Assembly (NCBI RefSeq): GCF_014042015.1
Contig: NZ_CP059493.1
Span: 744,001-808,000 of the forward strand
Direction: 5' to 3'
From: Actinotalea sp. JY-7876
GTDB lineage: Bacteria > Actinomycetota > Actinomycetes > Actinomycetales > Cellulomonadaceae
DNA length: 64,000 nucleotides
The position numbers and the translations under genes were made by a program. A model generated the notes under the pieces. That model was not told the origin of the DNA and did not search any database. It worked only from the letters and a program-made list of their open reading frames with translations. Numbering within the stretch: the stretch's first letter is position 1; each line of letters opens with the position of its first letter. Below, piece by piece: positions 42,225-63,288 of this stretch.

Positions 42225-43565
42225 ATGATCAGCAACGCGGCCGACAGGCTGGCGCAGGCGGCTGCCGACGTGCTCCGGCGCAACGACCGGGGCACCCGCA
42301 CCGTCGCCGCGCCGGACCTCTACCCGCACCAGTGGAGCTGGGACGCAGCCTTCGTGGCCATGGGCTGGGCCCGGATCTCCGTGCCCCGGGCGCTCCGTGA
42401 GCTCGACGGGCTCCTCGCGGGTCAATGGGCCACCGGGATGATCCCCCACATCGTGTTCTCCGACGAGGACGGCTACTTCCCCGGTCCCGAGCGGTGGCGG
42501 ACCGAGCGCGCCACCGCGGCGCCGAGCGCTGTACGGACGTCGGGAATCTGTCAGCCCGGCGTACACAGCCTCGCGCTCGCCGTCATCGGTTCGCAGGCCC
42601 GCGCGAACGGGGGCGAGGACGCGGAGCTGTTCCGCGACTTCCTCGGGCGGACCTTCGACGCGTGGTTCGCCTGGCACCGGTGGCTGGGCGACGTCCGCTC
42701 GGCCAACCCGGTCGGGCTGGTGGAGATCCACCACGGCTGGGAGTCCGGGATGGACAACTCGCCCCGCTGGGACGAGGCCTACCGGAGGGTGAGCGTCGGG
42801 GCGCTCGAGCCCTACGTCCGCCAGGACCTGCGCCACGTCTCGGACGCGGGCGAGCGCCCGTCCGACCGCGACTACGACCGCTACGTCTGGCTGCTCGACC
42901 AGCTGGCGTCGGTCGCCTACGACGACGCCGCGGCGCGCGACGTCGTCGACTTCCGCGTGGGCGACGTCTTCTTCACCGCCCTGCACGCGCTGTCGAGCGA
43001 GTTGCTCGCCGGGCTCGGCGACGGGATCGCGCGCCACGACCAGGCCGCCGAGCTCCGGGCCATGTCGCGCCGTGCCGGCGACGCCGTCGCGGCGACCGTG
43101 TCACCGACGACGGGCCTGGCACGCGACGCCGACCTGCGCGCGGGCGGGTGGCTGCACGCGGAGACCGTGGGCGGCTTCGCGCCGCTGGTGTGCGGGGCGC
43201 CGGCGCCGCTCCACGACGACCTGGTCGCGCTGCTCATGGGCGAGCGCTGGTGCGGCCACCCGGACCTGCATCGACCCCTGCCGCCGACGACCTCGCCGGG
43301 GAGCCCCGCCTTCGTGAGCCACAACTACTGGCGTGGGCCCCAGTGGCCGGTCCTCACGTGGCTGATGTCGTGGTCGCTCGCGCACCACGGGCACCACGAC
43401 GAGGCGGGCGCCCTGCGCGAGGCCGGCCTCGGACAGCTCGCCGACCTGCGCTTCGCGGAGTACTACGACGCGCTCGACGGGCGACCGCTGGGTTCGATGG
43501 CGCAGTCGTGGACCGCCGCCGTCGCGCTCGCGTGGCAGGACCGTCCCGGTGGGTGGTGGGCATGA
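42225..43565 (+). CDS. Glucosylglycerate hydrolase-like GH63 enzyme
   Basis: This 446-residue protein strongly recalls mycobacterial glucosylglycerate hydrolase (same length, GH63): AAPDLYPHQWSWDAAFVAMG, WATGMIPHIVFSDEDGYFPG, ICQPGVHSLALAV, EIHHGWESGMDNSPRWD with a catalytic Asp, FVSHNYWRGPQWPVLTWLM, and FAEYYDALDGRPLGSMAQSW with the second acidic residue. That enzyme splits glucosylglycerate or related mannosyl compounds into hexose and glycerate. There is no signal peptide. I chose ATG (MISNAADR); a TTG 13 codons upstream is less likely. It is the first gene of the operon and its stop overlaps the next start. Downstream glycerate kinase and glucose-6-phosphate dehydrogenase fit its products. 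Confidence 0.8.
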   Translation: MISNAADRLAQAAADVLRRNDRGTRTVAAPDLYPHQWSWDAAFVAMGWARISVPRALRELDGLLAGQWATGMIPHIVFSDEDGYFPGPERWRTERATAAPSAVRTSGICQPGVHSLALAVIGSQARANGGEDAELFRDFLGRTFDAWFAWHRWLGDVRSANPVGLVEIHHGWESGMDNSPRWDEAYRRVSVGALEPYVRQDLRHVSDAGERPSDRDYDRYVWLLDQLASVAYDDAAARDVVDFRVGDVFFTALHALSSELLAGLGDGIARHDQAAELRAMSRRAGDAVAATVSPTTGLARDADLRAGGWLHAETVGGFAPLVCGAPAPLHDDLVALLMGERWCGHPDLHRPLPPTTSPGSPAFVSHNYWRGPQWPVLTWLMSWSLAHHGHHDEAGALREAGLGQLADLRFAEYYDALDGRPLGSMAQSWTAAVALAWQDRPGGWWA

Positions 43566-45817
43566 CGAGCGCCACGACCGCGCTCGGCGCCGCCCGCGTG
43601 CCCTGGGTGGGGCGCTCGCAGCCCGCGGAGGAGGCCCCCCAGATCGTCACCGGTGCGCTGCGCTTCGTGACCGACCTCCGACTGCCGGGGACCCTGCACG
43701 GGGTCGTCGTGCGCTCCGCGGTGCCCCACGCGCGGGTCGTCGAGGTCGACGTGACGGCCGCGCGGGCGCTCGACGGCGTGCGCGCCGTGCTCGTCGCCGC
43801 GGACGTGCCCGTCAACGCGCTCGGACCGCGCGACGTCGACGGCCCCGTGCTCGCGTCCACCGTGGTGCGGCAGGTCGGCGACGCGATCGCCCTGGTCGCC
43901 GCCGAGGACGCGGCGACGGCGCACCTGGCGGCCGCCCTCGTGCGCGTCGCCCTCGACCCGCTGCCCGTCGTCTCCGAGATGGCGCGCGCCCTCGACGCGG
44001 ACGCCCCGCGGTTGCACGCGGACGGCAACCTCTCGGGTCGGATCGCCTTCCGGTCGGGCGACGTGGACGCCGCCCTCGCGGCCGCCCACCTCGTCCTCGA
44101 CGAGGAGGTGCGCACACCGGGGCAGGAGCACGTCGCGATCGAGACGCCGGGCGGCACGGCCGTCTGGGAGGACGGGCGCGTGACCGTCTGGTGCGGTTCG
44201 CAGAACCCAGGGCTGCACCAGCGCAAGATCGCTCGCGCGCTCGCGGTCGACCCCGAGCAGGTACGCATGGTCGGGGGACCCGTCGGTGGCGCGTTCGGCG
44301 CCCGCAACGACGACCCGATGCCCGTCTACCTCGCGCTGCTCGCGCGTGCCACCGGCCGGCCGGTGCACGTGCACATGACGCGCGAGGAGGTCATGGCCGC
44401 CGGTGCGAAGCGGCACCCGTTCCGGACGCGGATCACCATCGGGTTCGACCCCGACGGCCGCATCCTCGGGTCTCGCGTGCACGCGCTCGCGGACACGGGG
44501 CCGGTCATCACGTCCGGGCCCAACGTCATGAAGACCTCGGCGGAGATGTCGACCGGGCCCTACGCCTTCGCAGCGGCCGAGTTCGACGGCACGGTGGTCT
44601 ACACGAACAACGCGAACGCGGGCGCCTTCCGCGGTTACGGCGTGCCGCAGGTCGCGTTCGCGATCGAGAACGCCATGACGGCCGCCGCGCACCGCCTCGG
44701 CATCGACCCGGTCGAGATCCGACGGCGCAACGTCCTGCGCGGCGGGGAGCAGCACAGCCTCTACCGCCACCGCACCACCGCGAGCCTGCGCGTGGACGAG
44801 GCGCTCCGGACCGCCGAGCAGCACCCGCTGTGGGCGGACCGGGCGGCGTGGGCCGCGGGTGCCTGCTGGCCGTGGCGGCGGGGCACGGGCGTGGCCATCG
44901 CCATGAAGGGCGTCGGCATGGGCAGCGGCACGGGGGACACGGCCCGTGCCCGGCTGCGCATCGACCGGAGCGGGCACGTCACCGTCTGGGCCGGCCCCAA
45001 CCACACCGGCCAGTCCATCCAGACGACCTACCGTCAGGTCGCGGCGGACACGCTCGGCCTGTCCTACGACGACGTCACCGTCGTCGTCGGCGACACGTCG
45101 GTCGTCCCCGAGTCCGGGCCGACCGCCGCCTCGCGCTCGACCTATGCGGGCGGGGCTGCGGTGCACGCCGTCTGCCTCGTGCTGCGCGAGGAGTGCGAGC
45201 GCCTCGGGCTCCCGCTGGACACCGACCCGGCGGGGACCGGCGAGAAGCTCGAGGCCCTCGGCCGCGCCGAGCACAGCGCGGAGTTCCGCCTGCCCGACAC
45301 CGAGGACCCCGGCCTCGTCCCGCACGAGGAGCTCGCGCGCTTCGGGCCCCACCGGGTCTACGGCTCCTGCGCCCAGGTGGTACGTGCCGAGGTCAACGTC
45401 CTCACGGGAGAGATCCGCGTGCCCGAGCTGCTCTGCACGGTGGACTGCGGCACGGCGATCAACCCCGGCGGCGTCGTCGGCCAGGCGGAGGGCGGCATCC
45501 TCCAGGGCCTCGGCCTCGCGCTCATGGAGGAGCACGTCGTGACGGACGGGATCCCGCGCACGACCAGCCTCGAGAGCTACCACGCACCGACGATCGCCGA
45601 CGCGCCGCGCATGCACACCGTCCTCGTGCCGGGCGCCGAGGGGACCGGCCCCTACGGCGCGAAGGGGATGTCCGAGGTCGTCGTCGTGCCGACGCCCCCC
45701 GCGCTCGCCGCCGCGGTGCTCGACGCGACGGGCGTGCTGCCCGCGGAGCTCCCCGTCACGCCCGAGCGCCTGCTGGCCCTGCTGGAGGAGGTGGCGCCGT
45801 GCGCGTCAACGGAGTGA
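43562..45817 (+). CDS. Molybdenum hydroxylase large subunit (xanthine dehydrogenase family)
   Basis: This 751-residue protein is the molybdopterin-binding subunit. It has the two domains of the family: the a/b hammerhead (about residues 15-130, GALRFVTDLRLPGTLHGVVV) and the Mo-binding domains with GPVGGAFGARNDD, GAFRGYGVPQVAFAIEN, TGQSIQTTYRQVAADTLG, and GPYGAKGMSE, where the Glu is the catalytic base. It should hydroxylate a carbon next to a ring nitrogen or an aldehyde. The substrate is unknown. The ATG overlaps the glycosidase stop, and it is followed by iron-sulfur and FAD subunits. Confidence 0.92.
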   Translation: MTSATTALGAARVPWVGRSQPAEEAPQIVTGALRFVTDLRLPGTLHGVVVRSAVPHARVVEVDVTAARALDGVRAVLVAADVPVNALGPRDVDGPVLASTVVRQVGDAIALVAAEDAATAHLAAALVRVALDPLPVVSEMARALDADAPRLHADGNLSGRIAFRSGDVDAALAAAHLVLDEEVRTPGQEHVAIETPGGTAVWEDGRVTVWCGSQNPGLHQRKIARALAVDPEQVRMVGGPVGGAFGARNDDPMPVYLALLARATGRPVHVHMTREEVMAAGAKRHPFRTRITIGFDPDGRILGSRVHALADTGPVITSGPNVMKTSAEMSTGPYAFAAAEFDGTVVYTNNANAGAFRGYGVPQVAFAIENAMTAAAHRLGIDPVEIRRRNVLRGGEQHSLYRHRTTASLRVDEALRTAEQHPLWADRAAWAAGACWPWRRGTGVAIAMKGVGMGSGTGDTARARLRIDRSGHVTVWAGPNHTGQSIQTTYRQVAADTLGLSYDDVTVVVGDTSVVPESGPTAASRSTYAGGAAVHAVCLVLREECERLGLPLDTDPAGTGEKLEALGRAEHSAEFRLPDTEDPGLVPHEELARFGPHRVYGSCAQVVRAEVNVLTGEIRVPELLCTVDCGTAINPGGVVGQAEGGILQGLGLALMEEHVVTDGIPRTTSLESYHAPTIADAPRMHTVLVPGAEGTGPYGAKGMSEVVVVPTPPALAAAVLDATGVLPAELPVTPERLLALLEEVAPCASTE

Positions 45818-46290
45818 GCGTCGACCCGGCCGCGACCGCGGCGGCCCTCGGCCTCGGCGTCGACGACCTGCCCGGCGCCCGTCTGCTCGACGTCCTACGG
45901 GACGGGCTCGGCCTGACCGGCGCCAAGGAGGGCTGCGGCATGGGGGAGTGCGGCAGCTGCACCGTGCTCGTCGACGGTCGCGCCGTCTGCTCGTGCCTGG
46001 TCCTGCAGGGACAGGTCGCCGACGCCGATGTCGAGACGGTCGAGGGACTCGCGGACCGCGGTGGCGCGGACCTGCAGGAGGCCTTCGTGCGCCGACAGGC
46101 CGTCCAGTGCGGCTACTGCATCCCCGGCGTCCTGATGTCGTGCGCCGCGCTGCTCGACCGGTCGCCGGACCCCTCCGACGACGAGATCCGCGCCGCCCTG
46201 GACGGGAACCTGTGCCGCTGCACGGGGTACAACCGCTTCCACGACGTCCTGCACGACGTCGCTCGGGGTCGCTGCGGGGGTGCCTCGTGA
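45799..46290 (+). CDS. Molybdenum hydroxylase [2Fe-2S] subunit
   Basis: This 163-residue electron-transfer subunit has a plant-type [2Fe-2S] cluster site (EGCGMGECGSCTVLVDGRAV followed by Cys) and the second cluster site (QCGYCIPGVLMSC and LCRCTGYNRF), the pattern of CoxS/XdhC-type small subunits. The GTG start lies 18 bases inside the large-subunit gene and is preceded by AGGAGG. The usual order in related operons places the FAD subunit next, as found here. Confidence 0.95.
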   Translation: MRVNGVSVDPAATAAALGLGVDDLPGARLLDVLRDGLGLTGAKEGCGMGECGSCTVLVDGRAVCSCLVLQGQVADADVETVEGLADRGGADLQEAFVRRQAVQCGYCIPGVLMSCAALLDRSPDPSDDEIRAALDGNLCRCTGYNRFHDVLHDVARGRCGGAS

Positions 46291-47177
46291 GCGCCCCGCC
46301 CCAGGTCGTGCGACCGCGGCACGTCGCCGAGGTGAGCGCGCTGCTGGCGCAGGGCATGCCGCTCGCCGGCGGCACCGACCTCCTCGTGCAGCGCCGCGCG
46401 GGTGCGCGCCACGACCGGCTGGTCGACCTCACGGGGCTCGTGGACGCGCCCGCCCCGCTCGCGGTGCAGGACGGCGACCGGCCCTCGCTCGTCCTGTCGG
46501 GCGTCGCGCCCCTGGCCCGCGTCGTCGACGCGCTCGCGGGCCGGTTCCCGGCGTTGCGGGACGCGGCCTCGTTCTTCGCGTCCCAGCAGATCCGCAACCG
46601 CGCGACGCTCGGCGGCAACCTCGCGACGGGCTCGCCCGCCGCGGACACCGTGCCCCCGCTCCTCGCGGCGGAGGCCGTGGTCACCGTCCGCGGGACCGAC
46701 GGTGAGCGCGACGTCCCGCTCGAGGCCTTCCTGCTGGGTCCCCGGCGCGTCGACCTGCGGGCGACCGAGTGGGTCGTCACGGTCCGGGTGCCGACTCCGC
46801 CGGCGACCGGCGGCTACCGGAAGATCGGCGGGCGCCGTGCGCTGGCGATCTCCGTCGTCGACCTCGCCTGGCAGTGGCGCGTCGCGGACGGCGTGCTGCA
46901 CGACGTGCGGCTCGCCGCAGGCTCGGTCGCGCCCACCGTGGTGCGCCTGCGCTCCGCCGAGGCGGAGCTCGAGGGCCGCCGGGTGACCCCGGCCGTCGCG
47001 CGCGCCGCCCTCGCCGCCGTCCAGGCGGACATCAGCCCCATCGACGACCTTCGCGCGAGCGCCGCCTACCGCCGCCGCTGCGCGGCCGCGCTGCTGCACG
47101 AGGTGCTCGGCGGCGTCGGTCCCGACCAGCCCCACGACCCCCTCGTCCCCCACCCCGAGCAGGAGATCGCCTCGTGA
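46287..47177 (+). CDS. Molybdenum hydroxylase FAD subunit (CoxM type)
   Basis: This 296-residue medium subunit carries the two FAD motifs AGGTDLLVQ (after VRPRHVAEVSALLAQGMPL) and TLGGNLATGSPAADTVPPL, followed by a CO-dehydrogenase flavoprotein C-terminal domain (GYRKIGGRRALAISVVDLA). It passes electrons from the iron-sulfur subunit to NAD or another acceptor. GTG overlaps the [2Fe-2S] subunit stop, and its stop overlaps the next gene, completing a three-subunit hydroxylase. Confidence 0.95.
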   Translation: MSAPPQVVRPRHVAEVSALLAQGMPLAGGTDLLVQRRAGARHDRLVDLTGLVDAPAPLAVQDGDRPSLVLSGVAPLARVVDALAGRFPALRDAASFFASQQIRNRATLGGNLATGSPAADTVPPLLAAEAVVTVRGTDGERDVPLEAFLLGPRRVDLRATEWVVTVRVPTPPATGGYRKIGGRRALAISVVDLAWQWRVADGVLHDVRLAAGSVAPTVVRLRSAEAELEGRRVTPAVARAALAAVQADISPIDDLRASAAYRRRCAAALLHEVLGGVGPDQPHDPLVPHPEQEIAS

Positions 47178-48151
47178 AGATCGGTGTCACCGTCCGTCCC
47201 GACCAGCCGATGACCGAGGCCGCGGCCTGGGCACGCCGGATCGAGGACCTCGGCTTCGACGGCGTGTGGTTGGCCGACCACTACTTCCACCGGGACGTCT
47301 CGGGCGCGCTCGCCCTGATGATGGCGGCGACGCGGCGCGTGACGCTCGGGACCGCCGTCATGTCGCCCTTCCTGCGGCACCCGACGCTCCTGGCGAGCAT
47401 GGCCGCGAGCCTGCGGGAGATCGGCGACGGCCGGTTCGTGCTCGGCCTGGGCGCGGGGGGCTACGAGTTCGCGAGCGAGCTCGGGATCGAGATGAAGCGT
47501 CCGCTGCGGCTCACGGCGGAGGCCGTCGAGATCGTCCGCCAGCTCTCGCGCGGCACGTCCGACGTCGCGGGGGAGACCTTCAGCGCGCGCGGCTCGCGCC
47601 TGCGCTGGGACGTGCAGGACGGCCCGCTCTACCTCGCGGCCCGTGGCCCCAAGATGCTCGAGCTCTCCGGCCGCGTCGCGGACGGCGTCATCACCCACGG
47701 CATCGCGCCCAGCCACGTGCAGTACGTGCGCGACCACGTCGCCACCGGCGCGGCGGGGCGCACCGAGGGCCGCACGTCGATCTGCCTGATGCTCGACGTC
47801 GAGATCGGCGACGACCGCGAGGCGGCCCTGGCCGCGCTGCGCCCACGGTGCACGACGATGGCCGGCGGCGCCTACGCCGACGAGCTCATCGAGGTCTACG
47901 GCCTCGACGTCGAGGAGGTCCGCGCGCTGCGCGCCACCGTGCGCACCGGGGACCGCGTCGCCGCAGCGGCGCAGGTCACGGACGCGATGGCCGAGGCATT
48001 CGGCGTGGCCGGGCCGGCGGGCCGCGTCCGCGACGCCGTCGACGCCCTGGCCGCGGCCGGCGTCGACGAGGTCATCCTCAGCGTCGGCGGGGCCACCCCC
48101 GACGCCGTCAGCACCCAGCTCACCCAGCTCGCGAAGGCGGTCCTCGCATGA
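47174..48151 (+). CDS. LLM class oxidoreductase, methylene-H4MPT reductase-like
   Basis: This 325-residue TIM-barrel protein of the luciferase-like group opens with KIGVTVRPDQPMTEAAAWAR, LGFDGVWLADHYFHRD, VTLGTAVMSPFLRHP, and has LYLAARGPKMLELSGRVADG. The closest shape is that of F420-dependent methylene-tetrahydromethanopterin reductase relatives, which use F420 or FMN. The role in this operon is unknown; a redox step on the hydroxylated intermediate is possible. GTG overlaps the FAD-subunit stop and the end overlaps the next gene. Confidence 0.86.
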   Translation: MKIGVTVRPDQPMTEAAAWARRIEDLGFDGVWLADHYFHRDVSGALALMMAATRRVTLGTAVMSPFLRHPTLLASMAASLREIGDGRFVLGLGAGGYEFASELGIEMKRPLRLTAEAVEIVRQLSRGTSDVAGETFSARGSRLRWDVQDGPLYLAARGPKMLELSGRVADGVITHGIAPSHVQYVRDHVATGAAGRTEGRTSICLMLDVEIGDDREAALAALRPRCTTMAGGAYADELIEVYGLDVEEVRALRATVRTGDRVAAAAQVTDAMAEAFGVAGPAGRVRDAVDALAAAGVDEVILSVGGATPDAVSTQLTQLAKAVLA

Positions 48152-49260
48152 CCCACCTGCCCACGTCCGCAACCGTCCTCGGCTCCGGGGCCGGGGCGCT
48201 CAGCTCCGCGATCGAGATGTCGCTGCTCGGCATCGACGTCACCGTCGCCGACCTCGAGCGCTTCCGCGCGAGCATCGACGCGATCGCCGAGCGCGGCGTC
48301 GTCCGCCTCCGCTCGCCCTGGCACCACGTGACCGAGGCGCCCGCCAGGGCGTCGCTCGACCCGGCCGCCGCCGTGCGGGGCACCGAGCTCGTCGTCGTCT
48401 CCGTGCCCGCCTTCGGGCACGACGCGTTCGCCGAGATCCTCGCCGCGAACCTCGAGGACGGCCAGCAGGTGGTCTTCGCCGGCGAGGGAGGCGGCGCCCT
48501 CGCCCTGGTCGCTGCGATGCGCCGCTCCGGGCGCCGCGTGCGTGCGCACGTGGCCGAGCTGAACTCGCTGCCGTACGGGGCGCGGGTACGCGAGCCGGGC
48601 CTGGTCACGGCGTCGCGGAAGGTCGGCGGCACGGTCGTCGCGGGGCTGCCGGCGGGTAACCCGGCCGAGGCGACGGCGTGCGCGATCTGGCCCTCGGTGA
48701 CGGCGGGCGAGAGCGTGTGGGAGACAGTCCTGCTCAACTTCAACGCCATCGACCACGTGCCGCCGATCCTCGGCAACCTCGGCGCGGTCCAAGGCCGGGC
48801 GGGCAAGTTCCTGCTCTGGGGTGAGGGCGCGAGCCCTGCGGTGTGCCGCTGGATCGCCGCGATCGACGCCGAGCTGATCGAGATCCGCCGTGCGTTCGGC
48901 TTCAGCAACCTCAAGGGTTATGAGGAGTACCTCGTCGAGCAGGGCTTCGCGCCGCGCGTGGGCGCGGACCTGTTCGAGACCCTGCGCTCGAGCGCCTTCG
49001 CGGACTCGACGTTCGGCACCGGTCCGGACGCGCTGAGCAGCCGGTACGTCACCGAGGATGTGCCGTTCGCGCTGTGCCTCATGTCATCGATCGGGCGCGA
49101 GGTGGGCGTCGCGACCCCCACCGTCGACGCGATGATCCACCTCGCGTCGATCGCGACCGGCACCGACTTCCGGGCGGAGGGGCGCACTCTCGAGGCGTTC
49201 GGGCTGGCCGGCGCCGGCCGCGACGGCCTCCTCGAGGCCGCGCGGACGGGGTGGTGGTGA
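48148..49260 (+). CDS. NAD/NADP octopine/nopaline dehydrogenase family protein
   Basis: This 370-residue protein has an N-terminal Rossmann domain (TVLGSGAGALSSAIEMSLLG near residue 10) and a C-terminal helical opine-dehydrogenase domain with the family's NFNAIDHVPPILGNLGAVQ segment, which contains the catalytic His. Opine dehydrogenases reductively join, or oxidatively split, an amino acid and a 2-oxoacid. In a catabolic operon the splitting direction is likelier. The ATG overlaps the stop of the LLM gene; the stop overlaps the amidohydrolase start. Confidence 0.85.
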   Translation: MTHLPTSATVLGSGAGALSSAIEMSLLGIDVTVADLERFRASIDAIAERGVVRLRSPWHHVTEAPARASLDPAAAVRGTELVVVSVPAFGHDAFAEILAANLEDGQQVVFAGEGGGALALVAAMRRSGRRVRAHVAELNSLPYGARVREPGLVTASRKVGGTVVAGLPAGNPAEATACAIWPSVTAGESVWETVLLNFNAIDHVPPILGNLGAVQGRAGKFLLWGEGASPAVCRWIAAIDAELIEIRRAFGFSNLKGYEEYLVEQGFAPRVGADLFETLRSSAFADSTFGTGPDALSSRYVTEDVPFALCLMSSIGREVGVATPTVDAMIHLASIATGTDFRAEGRTLEAFGLAGAGRDGLLEAARTGWW

Positions 49261-53747: not shown

Positions 53748-53748
53748 C

Positions 53749-54969
53749 GTGCTCCTCACCAACGCGCTGCTGCCCGACGGCAGCACGGTCGACGTCGAGA
53801 TCACGGGCGACGTGGTCACGGCCGTGCGCCCGGCCGGGACGTCCGGTCCGGCGACGTCGGTGACCGACCTCGACGGGTACCTGCTGGTCGAGTCGCTCGT
53901 CGAGCCCCACGCCCACCTCGACAAGGTCTTCACGGTGGACCGGGTCGCCAACCCGCTCGGCACGCTGGCGGGTGCCATGGCGGGGTACGAGGCCGTGCTG
54001 CTCGCGTCCGACGCCGCGGACATCCGCCGCCGGGCGCGGCGCGCGCTGCGCCTGCTGGTCCGCAACGGGGTCACCGCGGTGCGCACGCACCTCGGCTGCG
54101 GGCGCCTGCTCGGTCTGCGCGCGGTCGAGGCGTTCGCCCAGGTGCGCGAGGAGATGGCGCCGTACGTCGACCTCGAGGTCGTCGCGCACGTCGGCGGTCC
54201 GGCGGCCGGCGTGACGTGGGGCGAGCACGTGCGCATCCTGCGCGACGCGCTCGCGGCGGGCGCGGACGCCGTCGGCGGCAACCCCTTCAGCGAGGCCGCG
54301 CCCGACGAGGCGATGGACGCGTGCCTCCAGGTCGCGGTGGACGCCGGGTGCCCGGTCGACCTCCACGTCGACGAGACGACCGACGGCTCGGTCCTCACGC
54401 TGCGCCGCCTGGCATCGCTCGCGGCGCAGGTCGAGGTGCCCGTCACGGCGAGCCATGCCGTCTCGCTCGGGTCCCTCGCCCCGGCCCTCGCCGACGAGGT
54501 GGCGGCGGAGGTCGCGGCCGCGGGGCTCGCGGTCGTCACCCTGCCGGCGACCAACCTGCACCTCCAGGGTCGCGGCGCCCACCCGACCCCGCGGGGGCTC
54601 ACGGCGCTGGACGCGCTCGAGCGCGCCGGGGTGAGCGTGGCCGCCGGCGGCGACAACGTGCGGGACCCGTTCAACCCCGTGGGACGCCTCGACCCGTTCG
54701 AGACCGCGTCGCTGCTCGTCACGGCCGGGCACCGCACGCTCGAGCAGGCGTGGCGCATGACGGTCCCCGCCGCGCGCGCCGTGCTCCGCCTGCCGCAGGC
54801 AGGTCCCGTCGTCGGACGCCGCGCCGACCTTCTCGCCGTCCGCGCCGCGAGCCTCGGCGACGCCATCGCCCTGGCCCCCGCGGACCGCCTCGTCCTGCGG
54901 TCGGGACGGGTCGTGAGCCGGACGACCACGACGACCTCGGGTCCGGTCCACGACGAGGGCCCCGCATGA
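53749..54969 (+). CDS. Cytosine deaminase-like amidohydrolase
   Basis: This 406-residue enzyme resembles the CodA/AtzC group. Metal-binding segments are LVEPHAHLDKVFT (first His pair), DLHVDETTDGS (third His), TASHAVSLGSL (fourth), and GGDNVRDPFNPVG with the Asp, all in the order and wording of cytosine deaminase-type enzymes. Such enzymes deaminate cytosine, creatinine-like rings or N-alkyl ammelides. With the first amidohydrolase and molybdenum hydroxylase it suggests a nitrogen heterocycle as substrate. The GTG start directly follows the permease stop by one base. Confidence 0.87.
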   Translation: MLLTNALLPDGSTVDVEITGDVVTAVRPAGTSGPATSVTDLDGYLLVESLVEPHAHLDKVFTVDRVANPLGTLAGAMAGYEAVLLASDAADIRRRARRALRLLVRNGVTAVRTHLGCGRLLGLRAVEAFAQVREEMAPYVDLEVVAHVGGPAAGVTWGEHVRILRDALAAGADAVGGNPFSEAAPDEAMDACLQVAVDAGCPVDLHVDETTDGSVLTLRRLASLAAQVEVPVTASHAVSLGSLAPALADEVAAEVAAAGLAVVTLPATNLHLQGRGAHPTPRGLTALDALERAGVSVAAGGDNVRDPFNPVGRLDPFETASLLVTAGHRTLEQAWRMTVPAARAVLRLPQAGPVVGRRADLLAVRAASLGDAIALAPADRLVLRSGRVVSRTTTTTSGPVHDEGPA

Positions 54970-56174
54970 GCGCCCGGGCGGCGGCCGCGTCGCAGTCGCT
55001 GTGGCGCTCGGCGGTCGTGCGCGCGGTGTTCCTCACCAACCTCGCGGGGTTCGTGAGCTTCTCGGCGACGCTCGGCGCGCTGCCGCTGCGGGCCGCGCAG
55101 CTGGGCCACCCCGAGGCCGTCGTCGGCACGGTGACCGGTGTGATGCTCGCCGTCACGGTCGCCACGCAGCTCGTGGCGGGAGCCCTCATGCGGCGATGGT
55201 CGGTCCGGACCCTGCTCGTCGCCGGAGCCGTGCTGCTCGGGGCGCCGTCACCGGCGTACCTGCTGGTCGACGACCTCGGCTCCTGGTACGTGCTGTCAGC
55301 CGTGCGCGGGGTCGGGTTCGCGCTGCTCACCGTGGTCGGCGCCGTCGCGATCCCCCGGGCGGCGCCGCGTGAGCGGCAGGGCGAGGCGATCGGCATCTAC
55401 GGCCTGTCGGCGGCGATCCCGAACATGGTGGTGGTGTCGGCGACCACCGCCCTCACGCTCGACGGCCGGTTCCCCGTGGTCGCGTGGTTCGCCGCCGCCC
55501 CGCTCCTGGCGCTGGTCGTGCGCGGGCTGCCGCGGGACCGCGTCGGTGCGGAGCCGGGCAGGCGGGACGGGCGCGGCGCCCTCGGGCCGACCGTCAGGCG
55601 CCTGCTGCTCCCCACGGCGACGCTCTTCCTCGTGACGATGTGCGGCGGCGGGCTGGTCACCGTGCTGCCGCTCCAGCGGCCCGACGGGCCCGTGGCCGCC
55701 GTGGCTCTGCTCGTCTACGGCGCGACCGGTGCGCTCGCACGCTGGCGCGTCGGGCACCTGACGGACCGCCGGGGGCACCGCGTCGTCACACCGGTCCTGC
55801 TCGTCCTGGGGACCGCCGGTCTCGCGGCCGTCGCCCTGGGCCTGCGGGACGCCGACGTCGGCGGCACGGCGTCGCTCGTCGTCGGCGCCGGCCTGTTCGG
55901 CGTCGCCTTCGGCGCCCTCCAGAGCGTCACCCTCGACGTCAGCCTCGCCCGCGTGCCGGACGCGCACGCGCCGACCGCCAGCTCCGTGTGGAACGCCGCC
56001 TTCGACGGTGGCACGGCGGCGGGCGCCGCGCTGCTCGGCTTCCTGGCGGGCGCGGCGGTCGGTGGGCCGGCCGCCGTCGGCGCCGGGGCACTGGGGCTCG
56101 GTGTGCTCGCCGTCGTCTCCGTGATGTCACGCGACCGCACGACGGCGCGTGCCACGTTCGTGAGTGCGCCGTGA
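54966..56174 (+). CDS. MFS transporter
   Basis: This 402-residue membrane protein has twelve predicted TM helices in two bundles, with the loop 2-3 region (LVAGALMRRWSVRTLLVAGA) of the major facilitator superfamily and a related ARWRVGHLTDRRGHRVVTPV in the second half. The export or import substrate is unknown. Its ATG overlaps the cytosine deaminase-like stop, and its stop overlaps the glycerate kinase start. It may provide a second uptake route or remove a toxic intermediate. Confidence 0.9.
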   Translation: MSARAAAASQSLWRSAVVRAVFLTNLAGFVSFSATLGALPLRAAQLGHPEAVVGTVTGVMLAVTVATQLVAGALMRRWSVRTLLVAGAVLLGAPSPAYLLVDDLGSWYVLSAVRGVGFALLTVVGAVAIPRAAPRERQGEAIGIYGLSAAIPNMVVVSATTALTLDGRFPVVAWFAAAPLLALVVRGLPRDRVGAEPGRRDGRGALGPTVRRLLLPTATLFLVTMCGGGLVTVLPLQRPDGPVAAVALLVYGATGALARWRVGHLTDRRGHRVVTPVLLVLGTAGLAAVALGLRDADVGGTASLVVGAGLFGVAFGALQSVTLDVSLARVPDAHAPTASSVWNAAFDGGTAAGAALLGFLAGAAVGGPAAVGAGALGLGVLAVVSVMSRDRTTARATFVSAP

Positions 56175-57175
56175 GGGTCCTGGCGGTGCCGGACAAGTTC
56201 CGGGGCTCGGCGACGGCGGCCGACGTCGCGGCCGCCGTGCTCGCGGGCGCCCGGGCCGCGGGGTGGACGGGGACGGCGCTGGCCCTGGCCGACGGTGGGG
56301 AGGGCACGCTCGAGGCGCTCGGCGGCGCCAACCGGGTCACGCGGGTCACCGACCCCCTCGGGCGGCCCGTCGACGCGGCGTGGCTGCTGCGCCCCGACGG
56401 CGTCGCGGTGGTCGAGGCCGCGCGGGCCTCGGGGCTCGACCTCGTCGGCGGCGCCGAGGGCAACGACCCCGTGGCGGCGACCAGCCGCGGCACGGGCGAG
56501 CTCGTCGTCGCCGCCGTCGACGCCGGTGCGCGCGAGGTGGTCGTGACGCTCGGCGGCTCCGCGACGACGGACGGGGGCAGCGGCGCCCTCGAGGTCCTCG
56601 CCCTCCGGCGGCCGCTGGGGGGTCCGGGTGCCGCCGTGCCGGTGGTGGTGGCGTGCGACGTGACCACGCGCTTCCTTGACGCCGCCGCGGTCTTCGGGCC
56701 CCAGAAGGGCGCCGGCACGGCGCAGGTCGCCGTGCTGACGCGGCGCCTTGCCCGGCAGGCGCAGGAGTACCTCGACCGCTGGGGTGTGGACGTCCGGGAC
56801 CTGCCCGGCGGCGGTGCCGCCGGGGGCCTGGGCGGCGGGCTCGCGGCTCTCGGCGCCCGGCTCGTGCCCGGGTTCGACCTCGTGGCGCGGCACGCCGGAC
56901 TCGACGCGGCGCTCGCCGACGCGGACCTCGTGGTCACCGGCGAGGGGTGCCTGGACGGCGGCTCGAGTCAGGGCAAGGTCGTCGGGGGCGTCGTCGACCG
57001 CGCGCGCCGGGCCGGGGTCCCGGTGCTCGTCGTGGCGGGGACCGTGCGGGCGGGCCACGGGCTCGACGCACCGGTCGTGCCGCTGGCCGAGCGGTTCGGC
57101 CAGGCGTCGTGGACGCGGACGGCGGCCTGCGTGGAGCAGGTCATCAGGGAGTACCTGGAGAGGGGACACGCGTGA
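56171..57175 (+). CDS. Glycerate 2-kinase (GarK/GlxK type)
   Basis: This 334-residue kinase converts D-glycerate to 2-phosphoglycerate, which enters glycolysis. It has the type I pattern: VLAVPDKFRGSATAADVAAA (usual DSFKGS-like start altered to DKFRGS), ADGGEGT, TLGGSATTDGGSGALEVL, and GAAGGLGGGLAALG. It is shorter than the usual 375-380 residues because of a reduced middle. The GTG overlaps the MFS stop. With a glucosylglycerate hydrolase-like gene and a sugar-acid dehydratase in the same operon, glycerate is a likely product of the pathway. Confidence 0.9.
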   Translation: MRVLAVPDKFRGSATAADVAAAVLAGARAAGWTGTALALADGGEGTLEALGGANRVTRVTDPLGRPVDAAWLLRPDGVAVVEAARASGLDLVGGAEGNDPVAATSRGTGELVVAAVDAGAREVVVTLGGSATTDGGSGALEVLALRRPLGGPGAAVPVVVACDVTTRFLDAAAVFGPQKGAGTAQVAVLTRRLARQAQEYLDRWGVDVRDLPGGGAAGGLGGGLAALGARLVPGFDLVARHAGLDAALADADLVVTGEGCLDGGSSQGKVVGGVVDRARRAGVPVLVVAGTVRAGHGLDAPVVPLAERFGQASWTRTAACVEQVIREYLERGHA

Positions 57176-58365
57176 GGATCACCGACGTGCGCTGCGTCGA
57201 GTACACCGGTGTCGTCGAGGCGCCGGGAGGCGTCTTCCTCGACCGGCTGCGGCGGCCGACGGACATCTACCCGGAGCTGCGGGCCGCGCCGCCGCAGACG
57301 TTCACGCAGGTCGGGCCCGACCGGTTCGAGGTCAGCTCGACGCTCCTGCACGTGGACACGGACGAGGGTCTGACGGGGACCGTCACGCAGCTGTCCCCGG
57401 AGCAGGCGTTCACGATCCAACGGGTGCTGCGGCCGCTGGTGCTCGGCGCCGACCCCATGGCGTCAGAGCGGCTGTGGGACGTCCTGTACCGGTCGGCGAT
57501 CCACGGTCGCAAGGGCACCGGGATGGTGGCGCTGTCCGCCCTCGACTGCGCGCTGTGGGACCTGCGCGGGCAGCGGCTCGGCGTGCCCGCCCACGTGCTC
57601 CTCGGAGGGCCCACCCGCCAGCAGATCCCGGCCTATGTCTCGACGCTCGGTGAGTCCCTGCTGCCCGCCGACGTCGCGCGACGCACGCGCGAGCTCGTCG
57701 GCGCGGGGTACCGGGGCCTCAAGTGGTTCCCGCGCTCCGGGCCCGAGGACGGGGCGGCCGGGGTCGACGCCGTCGTGGAGCTCGTGGGCACCGTGCGGGA
57801 CGCGGCCGGACCGGGTGTCGAGATCATGCTCGACGCGTGGAGCTCGTGGGACGTCGCCTTCACGGTCGACGTCGCGCGCGCGTGCGCCGGCCTCGGGCTG
57901 CGCTGGATCGAGGAGCCGCTCCCGGCCGACCATCTCGCGGGCTACCGCACGCTGCGCCGACGCCTGCCGGGCGGCGTGCAGGTGGTGGGCGGGGAGCACG
58001 AGTACACGCGGTGGGGCTTCGCCGAGCTCGTCGCCGCTGACGTGCTCGACCTCTACCAGCCGGACCCGCACTGGGCGGGCGGCATCTCCGAGACGATGAA
58101 GATCCTCGCGCTCGTCGCCGCGGCCGGCGCGCAGGCGATCCCGCACGGGCAGTCGCTCCAGTGCAACGCCGCCGTGTCCTTCGCCGCGCCGCCGTCGCTG
58201 GTCCCGCAGATGGAGTACCTGTCGCGGCTCATGCCCCTCTACCAGCACGTGCTCGCGGAGCCGATCGTCCCGGTGGACGGCGCCGTCGTGTGCCCGACAG
58301 CTCCCGGGCTGGGCATGGCGCTCGATCTGGACAAGGTCGTGCGCAGCCGCCCCTACCCCGTCTGA
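57172..58365 (+). CDS. Enolase superfamily sugar-acid dehydratase, RhmD-like
   Basis: This 397-residue protein has the N-terminal capping domain (about 1-130) and barrel of the mandelate racemase group. Metal ligands appear as Asp in VEIMLDAWSSWD, Glu in RWIEEPLP, and Glu in VVGGEHEYTR; the catalytic His is in AIPHGQS, and GYRGLKWFPRSGPEDG matches L-rhamnonate dehydratase. Such enzymes turn aldonic acids into 2-keto-3-deoxy acids. The aldolase usually needed next is not in this operon. GTG overlaps the kinase stop. Confidence 0.87.
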   Translation: MRITDVRCVEYTGVVEAPGGVFLDRLRRPTDIYPELRAAPPQTFTQVGPDRFEVSSTLLHVDTDEGLTGTVTQLSPEQAFTIQRVLRPLVLGADPMASERLWDVLYRSAIHGRKGTGMVALSALDCALWDLRGQRLGVPAHVLLGGPTRQQIPAYVSTLGESLLPADVARRTRELVGAGYRGLKWFPRSGPEDGAAGVDAVVELVGTVRDAAGPGVEIMLDAWSSWDVAFTVDVARACAGLGLRWIEEPLPADHLAGYRTLRRRLPGGVQVVGGEHEYTRWGFAELVAADVLDLYQPDPHWAGGISETMKILALVAAAGAQAIPHGQSLQCNAAVSFAAPPSLVPQMEYLSRLMPLYQHVLAEPIVPVDGAVVCPTAPGLGMALDLDKVVRSRPYPV

Positions 58366-58398
58366 GGTCCGTCCGTCCCTCGTCCTGAGAGGTGCCGC

Positions 58399-59388
58399 AT
58401 GCACGTCGTCTGCCTGTCCGACTACCCCCGTGAGCTCGTCGACTCGTGGCTCGTGGGCGCGCCGCAGCCCGCGACCGCGACGCTCGCGCCGCGCGACGCG
58501 ACGATCGGCGACCTCGCCGGCGACCTCGCGCGCGCCGACGTCGTCGTGGGCGACGCGTCGCGGCGGTTCCGTCTCGACGCGGCGACGCTGCGTGGACTCG
58601 ATCGGTGCCGGCTCGTGGTCCAGCCGTCCGTGGGCCTGGACGGCGTGATCGACGTCGACGCCGCCGCAGCGCAGGGGATCGAGGTGGTGAGCGCGCCCGG
58701 CTACAACGCCGAGGCGGTCGCCGACTGGACGGTCATGGCCATGCTGGTCGTCCTGCGCGACGCCGTCGCCGCCGACGCGGGCCTGCGGACGTACGGGTGG
58801 TCGGCGCGACCCCTGGGCCGCGAGCTCGGTGCCCTGACGGTCGGCATCGTGGGCTTCGGGTCGATCGGGCGCGCGGTCCGGCGGCGGCTCGCGGGCTTCG
58901 GGAGCGCGGTGCTCTACCACGACGTCGCGCCGCGGCCCGCGGACGAGGACGGCGCGCGCCACGTCGACCTCGACACGCTGTTCGCCGAGAGCGACGTCGT
59001 GACCCTGCATGCGCCCCTGGTCGGGGCGACGCACCACCTCGTGGACGCGGCCCGCCTCGCGCGCATGCGCCCGGGCGCCGTGCTGGTCAACGCGAGCCGA
59101 GGTGGCCTGGTCGACGAGACAGCCCTCGCTGCCGCGCTGCGCGACGGGCGACTCGCCGGCGCGGCGCTCGACGTCTTCGAGACCGAGCCGGTGCCGCGCG
59201 ACCACGAGCTGCTGCGACTCGCCACGTTCGTCACGCCCCACGTGGCGGCGGGGACCGAGCAGGCGCGGCGGCGTGTGCGCGCGCTCGTCGGCGACGTCGT
59301 GCGCAGCGCCCTCGCCGCGCCGCCCGGGCGGCGCTCGCCGCTGCCGTCGGCGGGACACGGGGCCCGCACACGAGGGGCCCGCACATGA
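58399..59388 (+). CDS. D-2-hydroxyacid dehydrogenase
   Basis: This 329-residue NAD(P)-dependent enzyme has the Rossmann motif TVGIVGFGSIGRAV, the catalytic Arg in NASRGGLVDE, Glu in VFETEP and His in TPHVAAGTEQ. Members act on glycerate/hydroxypyruvate, glyoxylate, phosphoglycerate or D-lactate. Beside glycerate kinase it could interconvert hydroxypyruvate and D-glycerate. A basic tail of about 25 residues is added at the C-terminus. GAGAGGTG precedes the ATG, 33 bases after the dehydratase. Confidence 0.92.
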   Translation: MHVVCLSDYPRELVDSWLVGAPQPATATLAPRDATIGDLAGDLARADVVVGDASRRFRLDAATLRGLDRCRLVVQPSVGLDGVIDVDAAAAQGIEVVSAPGYNAEAVADWTVMAMLVVLRDAVAADAGLRTYGWSARPLGRELGALTVGIVGFGSIGRAVRRRLAGFGSAVLYHDVAPRPADEDGARHVDLDTLFAESDVVTLHAPLVGATHHLVDAARLARMRPGAVLVNASRGGLVDETALAAALRDGRLAGAALDVFETEPVPRDHELLRLATFVTPHVAAGTEQARRRVRALVGDVVRSALAAPPGRRSPLPSAGHGARTRGART

Positions 59389-59453
59389 ACCGTCCCGGAC
59401 GACCCGCCGCTGTCGCGGCATCGCCCACCCGGGCCACCGAGAGGAGAACCCCA

Positions 59454-60463
59454 TGCTGAGATTCGGCTACAAGGCGTCGGTCGAGCAGTTCGGCCCCCGC
59501 GACCTCCTGGACTTCGCGGTGCTCGCCGAGCAGTCAGGCTTCGACTCGGTGTTCGTGTCCGACCACCTGCAGCCGTGGCGGCACACGGGAGGCCACGCAC
59601 CCGCCGCCCTGCCGCTGCTCGGCGCCCTGGCGACGAGCACGGAGCGGGTGGTGCTCGGCACCAGCGTGCTCACGCCCACCTTCCGCTACCACCCCGCCGT
59701 GGTCGCGCAGGCCTTCGCTACTCTCGGCTGCCTCGCCCCGGGGCGCGTCGTCCTGGGCATCGGCACAGGGGAGGCGATGAACGAGGCGCCGCTCGGTATC
59801 GAGTGGCCGGACGGCAAGGAGCGCTTCGCCCGGTTCAAGGAGGCCATCACGCTCATGCGCGCCCTGTGGGAGGGGGAGCGCGTGACGGTCGACGGCACGT
59901 ACTACCGCGTCGACCGCGCGACCGTGTACGACCGACCGGAGCAGCCGGTGCCGCTCTACGTCGCGGCCTCGGGGCCGGCCGCGACCCGTCTCGCCGGACG
60001 CGTCGCTGACGGCTTCATCACGACGTCGGGCAAGGACAGGACCCTCTACACCGAGACCCTGCTGCCCGCGCTCGCCGAGGGGGCCGCCCGCGCCGGCCGT
60101 GGGCTGAGCGACCTCGACCTCATGATCGAGGTGAAGGTGTCCTTCGACACCGATCGCGAGCGTGCCTTCGAGGACACGCGGTTCTGGGGTGCCCTCGCCC
60201 TCTCGAGCGACGAGAAGACCGGCGTCGAGGACCCGATCGAGATGGAGCGCCTCGCGGACGCGCTGCCTACGGAGCGCACCGCCTCGCGGTTCATCGTCTC
60301 CGACGACCCCGACGAGCACGTGGACCGGATCTGGGAGTACGTCGACATGGGCTTCACCCACCTCGTCTTCCACCACCCTGGCGCCGACCAGCGGCGCTTC
60401 CTGCGCCTCTACCAGCAGCACGTCCTGCCCCGGCTGCGGGCGCGGGCGGGCCAGGTGCGGTGA
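59454..60463 (+). CDS. fgd: F420-dependent glucose-6-phosphate dehydrogenase
   Basis: The enzyme oxidises glucose 6-phosphate to 6-phosphogluconolactone and reduces coenzyme F420. The 336-residue protein is the same length as mycobacterial FGD1 and very close in sequence: LRFGYKASVEQFGPRDLLDF, VSDHLQPWRHTGGHAP (Asp and His of the active site), LGTSVLTPTFRYHPAVVAQA, GIGTGEAMNE (Glu), TSGKDRTLYTE (phosphate Lys), DEKTGVEDPIEMER and SRFIVSDDPDEHV, with all three phosphate-binding residues equivalent to Lys198, Lys259 and Arg283. AGAGGAGA precedes the ATG. It could supply F420H2 to the LLM oxidoreductase of the operon. Confidence 0.9.
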
Positions 60464-61062
60464 GCGCGCCCGCCGCGGCCTGCGTCGCGGGACTGGTGCT
60501 GGCGGCCGGCGCCGGGCGCCGGTACGGCCGCCCCAAGGCCCTCGTCGAGGGCTGGCTCGCCGACCGGGTGCACGCCCTGGCCGGCGCCGGCTGCGTGCCT
60601 CGGCTCGTCGTGCTGGGCGCCGGCGCGGATGAGGCGAGAGGACTCGTGCCGCCCGGCACGGAGGTCCTCGTCGCTGCCGACTGGGAGGGCGGGATGGGCG
60701 CGTCCCTACGCGCGGGGCTGCGGGCGCTCGCGGACACCCCGGCCGCCGCCGTGGTCGTGACCCTCGTGGACACCCCGGGCCTGACGTCCGCCGCGGTGCG
60801 GCGGCTCGTCGCGCTGGGGGGTCCGACGGCCCTCGCGCAGGCGACGTACGACGGTGTCCCGGGGCACCCCGTGCTCCTGGGACGCGACCACTGGGCGGGT
60901 GCGGGACGGTCCGCGGAGGGCGACCGCGGCGCGCGCGCGTACCTCGCGGCGCACGCACCGGTGCGGGTCGAGTGCGGTGACGTGGGGGACGGCGTGGACG
61001 TCGACGTCGCGCCGGGCGCCGTCGCCGGCCCAGAGCGGGGCGGCGCGTGCACGGGATCCTGA
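60460..61062 (+). CDS. MobA-like NTP transferase (molybdenum cofactor nucleotidyltransferase, MocA type)
   Basis: This 200-residue protein starts with AGLVLAAGAGRRYGRPKALV, the nucleotide loop of MobA/MocA enzymes, and has VTLVDTPGLTSAAVRRLVAL (metal-binding Asp) and GVPGHPVLLGRDHW. MocA attaches CMP to the molybdopterin cofactor used by xanthine dehydrogenase-type enzymes, which fits the hydroxylase subunits in the same operon. GTG overlaps the FGD stop. The end overlaps the XdhC gene. Confidence 0.87.
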   Translation: MSAPAAACVAGLVLAAGAGRRYGRPKALVEGWLADRVHALAGAGCVPRLVVLGAGADEARGLVPPGTEVLVAADWEGGMGASLRAGLRALADTPAAAVVVTLVDTPGLTSAAVRRLVALGGPTALAQATYDGVPGHPVLLGRDHWAGAGRSAEGDRGARAYLAAHAPVRVECGDVGDGVDVDVAPGAVAGPERGGACTGS

Positions 61063-62228
61063 ACGAGGCCGCCGCACTCCTCGATCGAGGGAAGGCGGTC
61101 GCGGTCGCCACGGTGGTCCAGACGTGGAGCTCGGCACCGCGGGACGCGGGCGCCTCGATGCTCGTGAGCGCCGACGGTGCGGTCCTGGGCTCGGTCTCGG
61201 GCGGCTGCGTCGACGGGGACGTCTACGAGCTGGCGCGCGAGGTGCTCGTGAGCGGTGTGCCCACGGTCGTGCGTTACGGCGTGAGCGACGACGCGGCACT
61301 CGCCGTGGGCCTGACGTGCGGCGGCACCATCGAGGTCCTGGTGCGCAGGCACATCGCGGGCGCAGCGACCGGTGCGCCTCCCGGGAGCCGCGGCCCGGAC
61401 GACGTCGCCCTCGCGCGCGGCCTCGCGGCGGCGGTCGGCGCGCACCGGCCCGCCGGGCTCGCGACCGTGGTCGAGCACCCCGACCCGGCGCGCGTCGGGG
61501 CCCAGCTGCTGGTCGTCCCGACGGCGCAGGGTGGTGACGCGTCGGGGACCCTCGGAGGCGGGCGGCTGGACGCCGCCGTGGCGGCGGACGCCGCCGGGCT
61601 GATCGGTGCGGGCCGGACCGAGGTGCTCACCTACGGCGCCGACGGCGAGCGTCAGGGCACGGGGTGCCGCGTGCTCGTCGAGGTGTTCGCCGCGCCGGCG
61701 CGGCTGATCGTCGCGGGCGTCACGGACTTCGCGGCCGCCGTGACGACCGTGGGCCGGTTCCTCGGCCACCGCGTCACGGTGTGCGACGCGCGGCCCGTGT
61801 TCGCCACGCGCGAGCGCTTCCCGGACGCCCACGACGTCGTCGTCGACTGGCCGCACCGGTACCTCGCCGCCGAGGTCGCCGCGGGGCGGACGGACAGGCG
61901 CACGGCCCTGCTGGTCCTGACGCACGACGCGCGGTTCGACGTCCCGCTGCTCGAGGTCGCGCTCCGCTCGCCCGCGCTCGGCTTCATCGGTGCGATGGGG
62001 TCGCGCCGGACGCACGAGGACCGGTGCCGTCGCCTGCGGGAGGCCGGGCTCACCGGGACGGAGCTGGCCCGGCTGGCGTCGCCCGTCGGGCTCGACCTCG
62101 GCGCTCGGACGCCGGAGGAGACGGCGATCTCGATCGCGGCCGAGATGGTCGCCCGCCGGTGGGGAGGCGGCGGGGGTCCGCTGGGCGAGCTCGACGGCCC
62201 CATCCACCACCCCCCGCCGGCGTTCTGA
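61047..62228 (+). CDS. XdhC/CoxF family molybdenum hydroxylase maturation factor
   Basis: This 393-residue protein has the XdhC N-terminal domain (AVATVVQTWSSAPRDAGASM, GSVSGGCVDGDV with the conserved Cys, and GLTCGGTIEVLV) and the C-terminal XdhC Rossmann domain (IVAGVTDFAAAVTTVGRFLG, ALGFIGAMGSRRTHEDR, and LGARTPEETAISIAAEM). It binds and inserts sulfurated molybdenum cofactor into XDH-type enzymes. The usual GxGxxA motif is changed to GVTDFA. It starts with GTG, 16 bases inside the MocA-type gene, and is the last gene of the 20-kb operon. Confidence 0.93.
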   Translation: MHGILNEAAALLDRGKAVAVATVVQTWSSAPRDAGASMLVSADGAVLGSVSGGCVDGDVYELAREVLVSGVPTVVRYGVSDDAALAVGLTCGGTIEVLVRRHIAGAATGAPPGSRGPDDVALARGLAAAVGAHRPAGLATVVEHPDPARVGAQLLVVPTAQGGDASGTLGGGRLDAAVAADAAGLIGAGRTEVLTYGADGERQGTGCRVLVEVFAAPARLIVAGVTDFAAAVTTVGRFLGHRVTVCDARPVFATRERFPDAHDVVVDWPHRYLAAEVAAGRTDRRTALLVLTHDARFDVPLLEVALRSPALGFIGAMGSRRTHEDRCRRLREAGLTGTELARLASPVGLDLGARTPEETAISIAAEMVARRWGGGGGPLGELDGPIHHPPPAF

Positions 62229-63282: not shown

Positions 63283-63288
63283 GCGGGG

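Follow-up and report, generated by a model that had tools for sequence, protein, structure and literature searches.

Two described systems are close to the locus considered here, an operon on the plus strand of a 64,000-nucleotide stretch of the Actinotalea sp. JY-7876 genome (the window, by which the whole stretch is meant). One is the reductive uric acid pathway of E. coli and C. difficile, for which the accessible part of the source lists XdhD, YgfK or UacX, SsnA, HyuA, YgeW or UacY, YgeY, and YgeX; the same part puts forward, as a suggestion, an F420 luciferase-family ring reductase for urate clusters in the Chloroflexota (PMC12507026). The other is glucosylglycerate hydrolase (GgH), which in mycobacteria serves recovery from nitrogen starvation, according to the available portion of PMC6608630. 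The enzyme families of the operon are all known, but their combination, with GgH beside a molybdenum (Mo) hydroxylase and amidohydrolases, is undescribed. A literature search for this combination, with most subscription papers outside its coverage, found no description of such an operon or pathway; within that literature, the statement to this effect in a preliminary description of the DNA holds. We read the locus, in a judgment evenly poised between true and false, as a single locally regulated catabolic operon that dismantles a glycerate-type glucoside and a nitrogen (N)-heterocycle.

The block spans 42225-62228 and comprises 18 plus-strand genes. Twelve of the 17 gene junctions overlap by 4-19 bases (4 bases eight times; also 10, 13, 16, and 19), and the remaining five are gaps of +1, +29, +33, +62, and +64, the widest being 64 bases. 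The preliminary description had reported eighteen same-strand, mostly overlapping genes, which this count bears out, and its family labels are correct at the family level. We count the divergent ROK-family regulator, together with the operator that it presumably uses, as part of the operon and remove the glycerate-kinase step from the core. So defined, the core consists of 14 genes, found in identical order in all ten clusters that were identified. They are listed here with the promoter and the palindrome:

40815..42065, minus strand: ROK-family repressor-type regulator, divergent in 10/10 clusters, 62-87% identity (Pfam ROK at 182 bits; weak helix-turn-helix match)
42141..42169, plus strand: sigma70-like promoter TTGACG-N17-TACGTT, conserved in the intergenic alignment and in relatives' loci
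42167..42181, no strand: 15-bp palindrome GTTCGGCCGCTGAAC, presumed ROK operator, between the ROK and GH63 genes
42225..43565, plus strand: GgH, GH63 glucosylglycerate hydrolase (NF047898 612 bits, cut-off 550; best PDB match 5ohc (MhGgH), E 7e-129)
43553..45817, plus strand: MoL, Mo hydroxylase large subunit, xanthine dehydrogenase family (MoCoBD_1 256 bits, MoCoBD_2 195 bits)
45799..46290, plus strand: MoS, [2Fe-2S] subunit (Fer2_2 and Fer2)
46287..47177, plus strand: MoM, FAD subunit (FAD_binding_5 and CO_deh_flav_C)
47174..48151, plus strand: LLM1, Mer-like luciferase-fold oxidoreductase, probably F420-dependent (Bac_luciferase 204 bits; PRK02271 214 bits, cut-off 276)
48148..49260, plus strand: OctDH, octopine/nopaline-dehydrogenase-family oxidoreductase, 68-93% identity across clusters (PF02317 120 bits)
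49251..50606, plus strand: AH1, cog0402-type amidohydrolase (Amidohydro_1 107 bits)
50636..51910, plus strand: SBP, sugar-type ATP-binding cassette (ABC) binding protein with Tat/lipobox N-terminus MNLSRRQLLGIGGGIAAGIALAAC (SBP_bac_1 159 bits)
51973..52923, plus strand: BPD1, ABC permease (BPD_transp_1 78 bits)
52920..53747, plus strand: BPD2, ABC permease, 77-93% identity across clusters (BPD_transp_1 63 bits)
53749..54969, plus strand: AH3, cytosine-deaminase-like amidohydrolase (Amidohydro_3 83 bits; PRK07583 213 bits, below the cut-off of 403)
57172..58365, plus strand: MR, enolase-superfamily acid-sugar dehydratase, L-rhamnonate-dehydratase-like (MR_MLE_C 176 bits)
58399..59388, plus strand: HADH, D-2-hydroxyacid dehydrogenase, 10/10 clusters (2-Hacid_dh_C 188 bits)

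The ten clusters, that of the window and those of nine further genomes, come from six genera and two orders. The other hosts are Cellulomonas timonensis; Occultella glacieicola (G013), O. aeris (G189), O. gossypii (G690), and a fourth genome of that genus (G063); Pseudactinotalea suaedae (G091); G628 and G650, of the same family in the grouping used; and Nakamurella lactea. NCBI taxonomy places Nakamurella in the Nakamurellales and the other named hosts in the Micrococcales. The closest relative of the window cluster is that of C. timonensis (OctDH 93% identical, concatenated core 87%), and against it all 18 operon genes show purifying selection, with dN/dS (the ratio of nonsynonymous to synonymous substitution rates) of 0.07-0.24.

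Could such a block be an accidental neighbourhood? Its rarity would fit: OctDH matches in only one of 19 genomes of its own genus, namely the host itself, and MoL matches at E 1e-120 or better in only 8 of 396 genomes of the order. But all eight of those genomes carry the cluster; the 14 core genes keep their order throughout, despite concatenated core identities between clusters of 62-97%; and one promoter and palindrome are conserved with them. Because the core is syntenic in 10/10 clusters, chance is refuted as an explanation and retains next to no probability; the block is a real unit. The preliminary description had proposed this search for shared gene order, and had named operons without the GH63/glycerate part or without the Mo part as a sign of accident. 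No such operon was seen: the GH63 and Mo hydroxylase genes occur together in all ten clusters. The glycerate kinase is present in two.

Further searches delimit the distribution. A contig scan with near-exact OctDH peptide seeds found six loci. Among 198 genomes of the order, OctDH matched in six, five of them (own genome included) with at least 76% identity and G010 with 36%; among 396 genomes of the phylum, it matched in the own genome and as three distant homologues. The fetched stretches around the distant homologues (G010, G379, G400, and G430) contain no other operon homologue, although genes for an oligopeptide-type ABC transporter and an Amidohydro_1 protein lie near the one in G379. 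OctDH homologues on plasmids of Cytobacillus, Paraburkholderia, Agrobacterium, Azospirillum, Acinetobacter, Paracoccus saliphilus, and the Arthrobacter group have uninformative neighbours, and plasmid matches of MoL and LLM1, one of them in a record without annotation, share no common setting beyond the Mo subunits. Both baits, OctDH and MoL, are core genes, and a cluster lacking both would escape these searches.

Regulation appears to be local. In aligned ROK-GgH intergenic regions from eight clusters, the promoter reads TTGAC(G/C)-N17-TA(C/T)GTT, with TAGGTT in Nakamurella, and its -10 box ends in bases shared with the palindrome, GTTCRG-N4-YGAAC; the G650, G690, and G628 loci contain the promoter pattern too. 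Written as TTGAC-N18-TANGTT, it has a single site in the window and none in 100 shuffles. The palindrome GTTCRGNNNNYGAAC is exact in nine of the ten clusters and carries one mismatch in G628. It is expected 0.06 times by chance in the window and occurs at one site, counted as its two strands, in the 3.55-Mb genome, which is one contig; a reversed control pattern has no match. Neither pattern recurs elsewhere in the window. A generic sigma70 scan predicted no promoter in 43565-63500, with a -10 threshold that would miss the conserved promoter too, so that this result carries little weight. Presumably the ROK protein binds the palindrome.

Six further genes accompany the core in some clusters, where absence means not found within the stretches fetched:

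39427..40818, minus strand: FAD_binding_4 (BBE-type) oxidase, overlapping the ROK gene, 7/10 clusters (Pfam FAD_binding_4 101 bits)
54966..56174, plus strand: MFS transporter, 9/10 clusters, none found in the Nakamurella cluster (MFS_1 91 bits)
56171..57175, plus strand: GlyK, glycerate kinase, window and C. timonensis clusters only, 2/10 (TIGR00045 228 bits, cut-off 168)
59453..60463, plus strand: FGD, F420 glucose-6-phosphate dehydrogenase, 7/10 clusters (TIGR03554 471 bits, cut-off 420)
60460..61062, plus strand: MobA/MocA-like nucleotidyltransferase for Mo-cofactor maturation, 4/10 clusters (NTP_transf_3 83 bits)
61047..62228, plus strand: XdhC-type maturation factor, 8/10 clusters (XdhC_C 131 bits, XdhC_CoxI 128 bits)

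Among the PDB entries that the FAD oxidase matches, 6-hydroxy-D-nicotine oxidase 2bvf (75 bits) aligns along most of its length.

The sugar part begins with GgH. At 22 positions of the Mycolicibacterium hassiacum enzyme MhGgH, taken from the accessible part of PMC6608630, the window protein is identical in 21, among them the two catalytic residues and those that contact glycerate directly. Eight cluster proteins were compared, with G628 and G650 left out: six of them, all non-Cellulomonas, have Gln in place of His78; position 433 is variable; and three of the eight rows stop before position 436. The pocket for terminal glucose and glycerate looks standard by this comparison, which agrees with the earlier identification of the GH63 protein as GgH. 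GpgS was not found above its cut-off in any of the seven cluster genomes tested (other genomes, 5/12), so glucosylglycerate probably comes from outside. An own store of glucosylglycerate, mobilised upon nitrogen resupply, was rejected as the leading account on the same evidence, which covers the GpgS route of synthesis. Phosphorylation of glycerate, previously proposed as an operon step, is weakened, since the kinase is present in two of ten clusters and is encoded outside the cluster in all seven genomes tested. MR falls below the L-rhamnonate dehydratase cut-off (PRK15440, 197 against 393 bits), and its metal-ligand and His/Asp motifs are retained in eight of eight proteins compared.

Import would proceed through the SBP and its permeases. 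The twin-arginine and lipobox sequence at the SBP N-terminus agrees with the earlier proposal of a Tat-exported binding protein. A Pfam scan of the block genes found no ABC ATPase gene.

These features also bear on a second explanation, in which one switch governs two nutrient streams: glucosylglycerate, used through GgH and sometimes GlyK, and a separate purine- or pyrimidine-like nitrogen source, never joined in one molecule. GgH is a standard glucosylglycerate hydrolase by sequence, with the mycobacterial role noted above (PMC6608630, in part), and each half has relatives that live apart. A Paracoccus plasmid stretch carries homologues of AH3, MoL, MoS, MoM, and XdhC near a nucleobase symporter and without GgH; a Rhizobium plasmid stretch free of Mo genes carries a GgH-like gene (40% identity) that has an ABC importer of its own. 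The block itself, however, has just one ABC importer, of sugar type; GgH and the Mo half occur together in every cluster; and without GpgS the seven genomes tested have no known route to a glucosylglycerate store of their own. This explanation is possible, if on balance doubtful.

The heterocycle part is built around MoL, MoS, and MoM, which together form a complete xanthine-dehydrogenase-family enzyme, as judged from their domains. The best models for MoL are PucD and XdhA (496 and 419 bits), the better score falling short of a cut-off of 784, and MoL reaches the cut-off of none of the NCBIfam models that it matches. Its Arg and catalytic Glu motifs are retained; the other Glu, at a position judged by motif, is Asn in eight of eight proteins compared. 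We take this Glu to be the xanthine-binding residue of known xanthine dehydrogenases, and its replacement would speak against plain xanthine oxidation. LLM1 has as its best PDB matches F420-dependent methylene-H4MPT (methylene-tetrahydromethanopterin) reductases. AH1 and AH3 most resemble base deaminases and hydrolases related to these. The best NCBIfam model for AH1, 8-oxoguanine deaminase, scores 194 against a cut-off of 532; its HxH, H, H, and D motifs, and the metal-site motifs of AH3, are retained in eight of eight proteins compared.

If no heterocycle were involved, the locus could serve a sugar-acid pathway only, with MoL/MoS/MoM as an aldehyde (for example, glyceraldehyde) oxidoreductase; MR as a sugar-acid dehydratase; HADH and GlyK acting on glycerate; and the amidohydrolases acting on lactone or amide bonds. 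MoL and MoS do match models for Mo glyceraldehyde dehydrogenase, at 301 bits (cut-off 790) and 146 bits (cut-off 290), MR resembles rhamnonate dehydratase, and the Glu-to-Asn replacement in MoL fits as well. Yet PucD and XdhA remain the best models for MoL, AH1 and AH3 are closest to base deaminases, and the block contains no keto-deoxy-sugar aldolase. We consider this pathway decidedly unlikely.

OctDH has the domain of the opine dehydrogenase family, with its FNAIDH and TEDVP motifs in eight of eight proteins compared; the conserved His and Asp of these motifs are presumably the active-site residues. The earlier assignment to opine cleavage is therefore upheld as a family resemblance (PF02317) and weakened as a specific role: the best solved relative is 1bg6, at 136 bits, and no NCBIfam family matched. 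Could the family point instead to biosynthesis, with OctDH making an opine-like product, the MFS protein exporting it, and the ABC system recovering it? The MFS protein is weakly similar to a staphylopine exporter model (25 bits, cut-off 235). Against this stand the sugar type of the SBP, the prominence of hydrolases in the gene set, and the Nakamurella cluster without an MFS gene, and such a role is very improbable.

A single catabolic operon for glucoside and heterocycle, the reading favoured at the outset, suggests the following sequence, in an order that is itself conjectural. The ROK repressor would sit on the single palindrome at the conserved promoter and be released by a sugar-type ligand. 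The Tat-exported lipoprotein and two permeases would import the substrate, with an ATPase encoded elsewhere. GgH would release glucose by cleaving an alpha-glucosyl bond of the glycerate type. Once XdhC and the MobA-like protein have matured it, the Mo hydroxylase would add an oxo group adjacent to nitrogen in the heterocycle; LLM1 would reduce the ring with F420H2; and AH1 and AH3 would deaminate it, open it, or both. The keto-, amino-, and sugar-acid fragments formed in this way would pass to OctDH, MR, and HADH. FGD would regenerate F420H2 from glucose 6-phosphate, and the glucose released by GgH would thereby pay for ring reduction. One sugar-linked nitrogen compound would be the most economical substrate, and its degradation would presumably be complete. 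A more specific version seems unlikely: that an undescribed natural product joining alpha-glucosylglycerate and an N-heterocycle is imported whole, that its own glucose, as glucose 6-phosphate, drives F420H2-dependent dearomatisation of its own ring, and that the hosts have to scavenge deazaflavin from neighbours.

In favour of the single-operon reading we count the 14-gene core; the conserved promoter and palindrome; GgH and FGD above their cut-offs; the proximity of LLM1 to Mer reductases; CofE near a predicted F420-0 importer; the lack of GpgS; purifying selection; and a likeness to the urate pathway, as presented in the available part of PMC12507026. Several observations weigh against it. 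FGD was not found in three of ten clusters and GlyK in eight, so these links are not obligatory. None of the heterocycle-part proteins exceeds an NCBIfam cut-off. Relatives of GgH appear to work without Mo company as well, as on the Rhizobium plasmid; the operon SBP, considered as a glucosylglycerate importer through likeness to the Rhizobium SBP beside the GgH-like gene, shows no similarity to it. Finally, F420 synthesis looks incomplete in each of the seven cluster genomes tested.

The cofactor genes were found as follows. CofG was detected in none of the seven; controls above the cut-off occur among the 14 genomes scanned, none of them close relatives. CofH above the cut-off was likewise found in none of the seven, and all four class-level control genomes were positive. 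CofD exceeds the cut-off in four; the three exceptions are the own genome, C. timonensis, and Pseudactinotalea. CofE is present in all seven. The F420-linked oxidation of glucose 6-phosphate proposed earlier therefore stands for FGD, which exceeds its family cut-off and matches the PDB entries 5lxe (E 1e-133) and 3b4y (E 1e-130) over full length, and is weakened for F420 chemistry, for which cofactor synthesis genes were not found.

Salvage of F420-0 by the host is the simplest reading, and uptake is possible. In the own genome, CofE lies at most 3.5 kb from opposite-strand predicted F420-0 importer proteins (G000:C1:1206000-1225000, L053 7766-13076). Their binding protein and permease score 467 and 511 bits against NCBIfam cut-offs of 392 and 437; the models, run on the own genome only, carry the label 'putative F420-0 ABC transporter', which is a hypothesis of NCBI. 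The literature searched contains no mention of these model names, and the words salvage and uptake do not occur in the accessible part of an F420 review (PMC8498797). The lack of a recognisable FO synthase seems, by the same scans, to be common in this order: six other genomes of it (G008, G027, G060, G001, G017, and G021) have CofD and CofE above the cut-off and no CofH match at E 0.001, with the CofE of G017 above it only when its neighbours in frame are included. As a separate observation, a protein adjoining CofE scores 307 bits with the 'flavin_revert' model, whose cut-off is 399. At the corresponding place, C. timonensis carries a similar gene (302 bits) and Pseudactinotalea a luciferase-fold gene of comparable length.

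Around the operon, two candidates for membership were rejected. The DUF1275 gene (62310-63077) and the TatA/TatC genes (38338-39430) have no match around the other clusters in the surroundings fetched, which in C. timonensis extend about 1.1 kb past the FAD oxidase. TatC and TatA follow the ROK and FAD oxidase genes immediately downstream on the minus strand, and a twin-arginine signal is present in the SBP of the operon. A 740-aa minus-strand open reading frame across the GH63 gene start was rejected there, as frame GC and Pfam show the GH63 frame to be coding; only its ROK portion (40815-42065) was accepted as a gene. Elsewhere in the window, a large plus-strand glycosidase (35479-37908) comes close to the model for the alpha-glucosidase MalA, at 475 bits against a cut-off of 800. 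At 12482-15468 (plus strand), an FAD_binding_2 oxidoreductase gene precedes one of the old-yellow-enzyme family, and a LuxR-type ATPase regulator is encoded nearby (9140-11773, minus strand).

The gene set is strongly conserved, complete in itself, and narrow in its distribution, and its operator-like site is unique; it is thus well suited to the discovery of a new catabolic pathway together with the compound that feeds it. If the single-operon reading is correct, GgH and F420 chemistry, described in mycobacteria, would also serve the breakdown of heterocycles in other actinobacteria, and F420 enzymes would operate in a host seemingly reliant on cofactor salvage.

How, then, does the operon compare with known systems? 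With the reductive urate pathway it has in common a Mo enzyme, a luciferase-family F420 candidate, and the Amidohydro_1 and Amidohydro_3 families, as far as the available part of PMC12507026 goes. It differs in that AH1 is far under the SsnA cut-off (TIGR03314, 93.5 against 455.5 bits), and HyuA, YgeY, YgeX, and YgfK-like genes were not found among the block genes scanned. The purine (urate) pathway proper was rejected, as no equivalog cut-off was reached and lower-pathway genes were not found in the block. The operon additionally has GgH, a sugar importer, OctDH, MR, and HADH.

A different partial likeness is seen on plasmids. Aminobacter sp. MSH1 pAM01 (L030) carries distant homologues of MR, AH1, OctDH, and AH3 (26-33% identity) within 19 kb, and Shinella sp. 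HZN7 pShin-03 (L046) has similar genes by annotation only. These stretches lack GgH, the Mo hydroxylase, and a luciferase-fold gene, and have M24 peptidase, DpsA-like, and isochorismatase genes instead. Such plasmid clusters (MR, amidohydrolases, octopine/nopaline dehydrogenase, cytosine deaminase) are a second setting for these families.

Within the known FGD family, the window protein stands out by its host, a genome without detected CofG, CofH, or CofD. The GH63 enzyme MhGgH shares with the window GgH a family model matched above its cut-off and the substrate contacts; in six of eight cluster proteins His78 is replaced, as described above. What sets the window GgH apart is its setting, beside a Mo hydroxylase and amidohydrolases.

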